The notes under the pieces: model-generated
Databases searched by the model: none
Seen by the model: only the letters and a program-made list of their open reading frames with translations
What the model was told of the DNA's origin: nothing
In this document: positions 38,214 to 38,297 of the stretch, piece by piece
Layout: the number at the start of each line of letters is the position of its first letter
Numbering within the stretch: position 1 is the stretch's first letter
Origin: Clostridiaceae bacterium
GTDB taxonomy: Bacteria; Bacillota; Clostridia; DSM-8532
Assembly (NCBI GenBank): GCA_012518025.1
Contig: JAAYTP010000070.1
Location: forward strand, 1-44,376
Reading direction: 5' to 3'
DNA: 44,376 bases
Translations under genes and position numbers: made by a program

Positions 38214-38239
38214 TTTGTCATCTCCTTTGTTATATAAAT

Positions 38240-38257
38240 TTGTGAAAAAATTCACAT
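38240..38257. promoter_or_regulatory. Rex-box-like operator in the fba leader
   Basis: TTGTGAAAAAATTCACAT has perfect TGTGAA/TTCACA arms separated by four A residues, one base off the published Rex consensus TTGTGAA-N4-TTCACAA. It lies just downstream of the proposed -10, where NADH-sensitive Rex repressor would block transcription. No rex gene is in the window. Confidence 0.55.
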
Positions 38258-38269
38258 CGTGCCATCATT

Positions 38270-38297
38270 ATTTTACCAGAATATCATAACAAATCAA
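38270..38297 (-). promoter_or_regulatory. Probable fba promoter
   Basis: TTGATT (38297-38292), 16 bases, TAAAAT (38275-38270) on the minus strand; start predicted near 38264, with the Rex-like dyad immediately after. Confidence 0.55.

Follow-up and report, generated by a model that had tools for sequence, protein, structure and literature searches.

A predicted Rex operator in the leader of the class II fructose-bisphosphate aldolase gene of a Clostridiaceae bacterium

Direct control of a glycolytic aldolase by the redox-sensing repressor Rex, which the initial annotation of the DNA studied here implied to be new, has already been published (PMC6018154; PMC8457756). According to the first of these reports, Rex represses fba in Streptococcus pneumoniae D39, where deletion of rex raised fba 2.9-fold and mutation of the operator derepressed the fba promoter; both fba and gap were tested, and the possibility that Rex also targets fba in S. 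mutans is credited to RegPrecise (PMC6018154). For Rex_2471 of Clostridium thermocellum, DAP-seq peaks or predicted sites are given at aldolase/phosphofructokinase, gap, pgk, eno, hydrogenase and 2-hydroxyacid dehydrogenase, with a DAP-seq peak at the aldolase/phosphofructokinase promoter (PMC8457756). The general Rex consensus is TTGTGAANNNNTTCACAA, and glycolysis and fermentation are among the core targets across 11 taxonomic groups (Ravcheev et al. 2012, as cited). Rex motifs of clostridia and thermophiles have also been described, as has an S. mutans rex operator that overlaps the -35 (PMC9600882, PMC5886521, PMC3441419).

Here, we examined a stretch of 44,376 nucleotides from an uncultured, fermenting Clostridiaceae bacterium (the window), which carries fba on its minus strand. 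An 18-base site in the fba leader, described in the initial annotation as one base off the Rex consensus, was confirmed; it reads TTGTGAAAAAATTCACAT and has one mismatch to TTGTGAANNNNTTCACAA. It is the sole one-mismatch match to TTGTGAANNNNTTCACAA in the window. At the same threshold (at most one mismatch), the 2.02-Mb genome holds two sites, those of fba and pckA, against 0.44 expected under a base-composition model, which corresponds to about 0.01 per window. When up to three mismatches were allowed, the window gave five matches against 2.95 expected, which is at chance level, with 18 of 100 shuffles reaching five. A site model built from six other sites scored the fba site at 19.1 and the next best place in the window at 11.0; these six sites were chosen with the same consensus, so that the independent part is the gene context.

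The position just past the fba -10, also noted earlier, was borne out. The promoter-like site is TTGATT-16-TAAAAT with TG before the -10 (9 of 12 matches), and the distance from the predicted -10 to the start of the dyad is 12 nt, the same as at gap, a placement that is compatible with repression. The promoter scan is weak when taken alone (six found in the window versus 2.9 expected), and the hexamers align across relatives in the g1 and g2 leaders. The gene starts at ATG 38213-38211. A mechanical reading frame begins further upstream, at a GTG within the dyad (38255), and is open from there, which would make the dyad coding; a clear Shine-Dalgarno sequence before ATG 38213, family orthologs that start with MPLVNT or similar at this ATG, and a dyad-to-ATG leader whose length varies among relatives all speak against it, and we set aside such a coding extension as hardly conceivable. 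The coordinates are collected in Table 1.

Table 1. Predicted features of the fba locus (window positions) and Rex-like sites before other genes of the genome
Feature	Position	Strand	Basis
Predicted Rex-type operator (dyad; fba-strand ATGTGAATTTTTTCACAA)	38240..38257	-	consensus match, family conservation, same motif at other genes
fba -35-like hexamer TTGATT (predicted)	38292..38297	-	consensus scan; aligned across g1 and g2 leaders
fba -10-like hexamer TAAAAT, TG before	38270..38275	-	consensus scan; similar hexamers in leaders of relatives
Shine-Dalgarno AAAGGAG of fba	38222..38228	-	sequence; also present in leaders of g1 and g2
fba, class II fructose-bisphosphate aldolase, 309 aa	37284..38213	-	PF01116 1.8e-105; TIGR01859 378 bits (cut-off 343)
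gap site	from -44		TTGTKAANNNNTTMACAA scan, at most 1 mismatch
adhE, two sites	~70 and ~150 bp before start		TTGTKAANNNNTTMACAA scan, at most 1 mismatch
Site at NuoE-like first gene of hydrogenase-type operon	~33 bp before		TTGTKAANNNNTTMACAA scan, at most 1 mismatch
pgk site	~110 bp before gene		TTGTKAANNNNTTMACAA scan, at most 1 mismatch
pckA site	~175 bp before gene		TTGTKAANNNNTTMACAA scan, at most 1 mismatch
Less clear site	~250 bp before gene with weak, below-cut-off HMGL-like match; 265 bp before divergent gene		
Less clear site	~370 bp before 3-phosphoglycerate dehydrogenase-like gene		

The locus resembles that of S. pneumoniae D39 in having a class II fba with a Rex-type operator, whose form there is TTGTKAWAAWWTTCACAA, although D39 is a streptococcus and not a clostridial relative, and its operator was tested whereas ours is predicted (PMC6018154). 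With the Rex_2471 regulon of C. thermocellum it shares a clostridial Rex and aldolase, gap, pgk, eno and hydrogenase as candidate targets; in contrast, aldolase and phosphofructokinase are divergent in C. thermocellum and share two sites, while here a single site lies in the leader of fba itself, and pckA and adhE, both preceded by sites here, are absent from the highlights table (Table 4) of that report (PMC8457756). Unlike the Clostridiaceae consensus TTGTTAANNNNTTAACAA of Ravcheev et al. (2012), the sites of the present genome are mixed, with half-sites of both the TTGTGA and the TTGTTA type.

The dyad is kept upstream of fba in relatives, being present with at most three mismatches in 26 of 29 family orthologs. 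These 29 are the fba loci with upstream DNA among 32 family genomes, and the last 120 bases of each were scanned. Sites with at most one, two and three mismatches occurred in 5, 18 and 26 leaders, compared with 0, 0.33 and 3.1 in dinucleotide shuffles and 0, 0 and 2 for the reversed pattern. For gap, the corresponding numbers are 17, 28 and 29 of 29 (shuffles 0.03, 0.37 and 2.9; reversed pattern 0, 1 and 7). The 18-mer at fba is identical in all five genomes of the bacterium's own genus. Across 18 aligned g1 and g2 leaders, the dyad is 93.5% conserved, as compared to 70% in the 50 nt before it and 72% after it, and it ranks second of 133 alignment windows by conservation. The fba leaders of G022 and G023 have no site within three mismatches. 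In G002 (L051), the spacer of the fba dyad is 2 bp shorter and the gap site is intact.

Outside the family, we scanned the last 200 bases before 74 fba loci from public genome records, taken from the best 80 of at least 552 matches, and found sites with at most one, two and three mismatches in 1, 6 and 15 of them (shuffles 0.03, 0.80 and 7.3; reversed pattern 0, 2 and 9). Since only 6 of these 74 loci, drawn from the best 80 of at least 552, have a site with at most two mismatches, the Rex-fba link would be lineage-specific or patchy, and conservation of the dyad appears to lie mostly inside the family. Several loci were left out of the counts: an fba paralog with 33% identity (L056), six loci with 84-89% identity (L057-L062), a 53-aa fba fragment in G018, G020, which gave no fba match, and L210, a paralog of gap from G015, a genome in which gap proper is in two pieces. 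The leader sites of L057, L058, L059, L060 and L061 are the same as those of L046, L049, L051, L053 and L052, respectively, and L062 has no site within three mismatches in its 251 bases.

A dyad in a leader might instead act in the mRNA, as a 5' hairpin that influences stability or translation, and folding differs among the genera. The fba leader of the bacterium's own genus can form a 6-bp hairpin of -5.6 kcal/mol, and folding of the gap sites in g3, g5 and g7 gave values of -4.6 to -4.7 kcal/mol. However, the fba dyad of nine g3, g5 and g7 genomes gives 0.0 kcal/mol and is still Rex-like, the gap sites of g1 and g2 fold weakly (-0.4 to -1.6 kcal/mol), and at pgk and pckA more than 100 bp separate the site from the start codon. 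At fba, folding is seen in g1 and most of g2, not in g3, g5 and g7, and is not kept together with the dyad; we set the hairpin aside and regard it as highly improbable. Rfam gave no match at the gathering threshold in the fba locus (L003).

As places to look for the same motif elsewhere in the genome, the initial annotation had named adhE, bcd, ldh and gap. The pattern TTGTKAANNNNTTMACAA, which covers both published halves, TTGTGA and TTGTTA, gave nine sites with at most one mismatch, compared with one for the reversed-pattern control and 1.8 expected from base composition. At up to two mismatches the excess is modest, 41 sites against 23 for the reversed pattern, a contrast that makes only the best sites informative. 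adhE and gap were positive, as were pgk, pckA and a hydrogenase-type operon, while neither bcd nor ldh was recognised among the genes adjoining the nine sites. Enolase has a two-mismatch site about 97 bp upstream. The adhE gene runs off its contig, and its comparison covered the first 477 residues. By our reading of the predicted proteins and of matches to NuoE and HoxE, the latter below cut-off, the NuoE-like gene heads a putative hydrogenase operon. The pckA gene is convergent to rex on the same contig, with its site about 2 kb past the end of rex. Six of the nine sites are free of overlapping frames of at least 60 aa; the remaining three fall under the 5' extension of fba, a 78-aa frame (pckA site) and a 108-aa frame (pgk site), and the last two frames are taken to be spurious. 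Between the Rex-like site and the 3-phosphoglycerate dehydrogenase-like gene, there is a glycine riboswitch (Rfam RF00504, 61.4 bits; L019:1632-1721).

The fba site could also be read as the target of a regulator of the CRP/FNR family. The CRP core is TGTGA-N6-TCACA, to which the fba site is an exact match, and three proteins of the genome have a CRP-type helix-turn-helix above the Pfam cut-off (C118, C50 and C158). A scan of the genome for this core with at most one mismatch gave 50 places, fba, pckA, adhE and gap among them, and the reversed pattern gave 10. Among the 15 of these 50 that were inspected, 13 lie inside frames of 185-966 aa, and fba and one other are intergenic. Of the 13 g2 leaders, 8 match the core exactly and have the adjoining base of the Rex consensus changed to T, and the other 5 match it inexactly. 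Both halves of one adhE site are TGTTA, and a TGTTA-type half occurs in the other adhE site and at gap, pgk and the hydrogenase-type operon. The nine g3, g5 and g7 relatives keep a TTGTTA-type fba dyad without TGTGA, a Rex-type dyad that lacks the core. CRP/FNR fits less well than Rex, and we set it aside as very unlikely. At L143:1501-1516, an intergenic GGTGATTTTTTTCACA site stands about 55 bp before a 313-aa frame and resembles the g2 fba sites.

The Rex reading put forward in the initial annotation is supported by the computational tests made, and the fba dyad very probably serves as a Rex operator. A further feature of the predicted operators is the parallel between fba and gap. Within the bacterium's own genus, the site lies 12 nt past the -10 at both fba (5 of 5) and gap (5 of 5); the distance at fba is 10-13 nt in g2 except G002, and 4 nt in g3, g5 and g7, and at the hydrogenase-type operon it is 11 nt as judged by eye. 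In g3, g5 and g7, TTGTTA takes the place of TTGTGA in the better half-site of fba and also of gap, and ATGATA forms the weaker half at fba. The fifth letter of the better half (G or T) matches between the two genes in 23 of 24 genomes, 15 being G/G and 8 T/T, and the sole mismatch is G011, with C at fba. These 24 are the genomes with both genes and an fba site within three mismatches; G002, G022 and G023 make up the 3 of 27 left out, and in G022 and G023, which are outside that limit, the fba and gap letters disagree. The agreement may stem from one ancestral change, and we regard it as supportive rather than strong.

The rex gene itself is present in the genome. Its product, which matches the NCBIfam redox-sensing repressor Rex at 323.8 bits (cut-off 233), is a 210-aa protein with both the winged-helix domain PF06971 and the Rossmann NAD(H) domain PF02629, and this full-length Rex (G000:C43) is the one match of the Rex DNA-binding family in the genome. 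A rex match was found in 29 of the 32 family genomes searched, including all 24 with a completeness of 90% or more and a contamination of 5% or less. It was not found in G013, G017 and G020, which are 84-89% complete; G017, an 84% complete draft, has the fba and gap sites. In the 81% complete draft G002, the Rex-domain match is weak and divergent. The recognition helix is IRQDL in all 28 canonical family copies, and no change accounting for the half-site difference was found in this helix among them. In Thermotoga maritima Rex, Arg48 and Lys49, which neighbour this helix, contact operator G5, G7 and A8 (PMC8836258). In our own alignment, Gln occupies the place of Lys49 in the Rex studied here. 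Gln at this place would go with T-type half-sites, and the present genome has a mixture of G and T halves.

The site, its promoter-like context, the rex gene, the regulon context and the conservation were obtained directly in this work; that Rex binds and represses at fba, and which way the site responds to NADH, we infer from known Rex biology. When NADH is scarce, a Rex dimer loaded with NAD+ would occupy the 18-bp site right after the fba -10 and keep fba from being transcribed. As NADH/NAD+ rises, Rex would release the site, and fba would be switched on along with gap, pgk and the NADH sinks (adhE and the hydrogenase-type operon). It is counter-intuitive that an already high NADH level should raise glycolysis, a point that PMC8457756 makes as well. 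The common layout of fba and gap offers simple promoters for asking why high NADH would raise glycolytic genes. The Rex operator at fba, a prediction with good support, represents a known kind of regulation in a new lineage. One more anaerobic lineage is thereby added in which the supply of glycolytic enzymes, and not the fermentation outlets alone, appears to be under the NADH sensor. A wider proposal, for which we would give slightly less than even chances, is that Rex is a family-wide master switch of lower glycolysis and fermentation, with fba, gap, pgk and probably eno sharing an operator code with adhE, the hydrogenase-type operon, pckA and rex, and with mixed G- and T-type halves that change together at fba and gap from genus to genus (TTGTGA or TTGTTA) under an unchanged IRQDL helix.

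Upstream of rex, a candidate site for Rex autoregulation was observed, by its looks in the sequence. The 18-mer TTGACAAAAAAATMACAA is almost invariant, occurring in 27 of 28 canonical family rex loci when whole loci were scanned on both strands. At L001, it lies about 117-100 bp before rex and overlaps a -35-like TTGACA, which is followed by a TATAAT-like -10, as judged by eye. Upstream of adhE (L017/L011), there is, in addition to the two Rex-like sites, a stretch of TTGACAAATATTTAACAC that overlaps with a -35-like TTGACA, as at rex.
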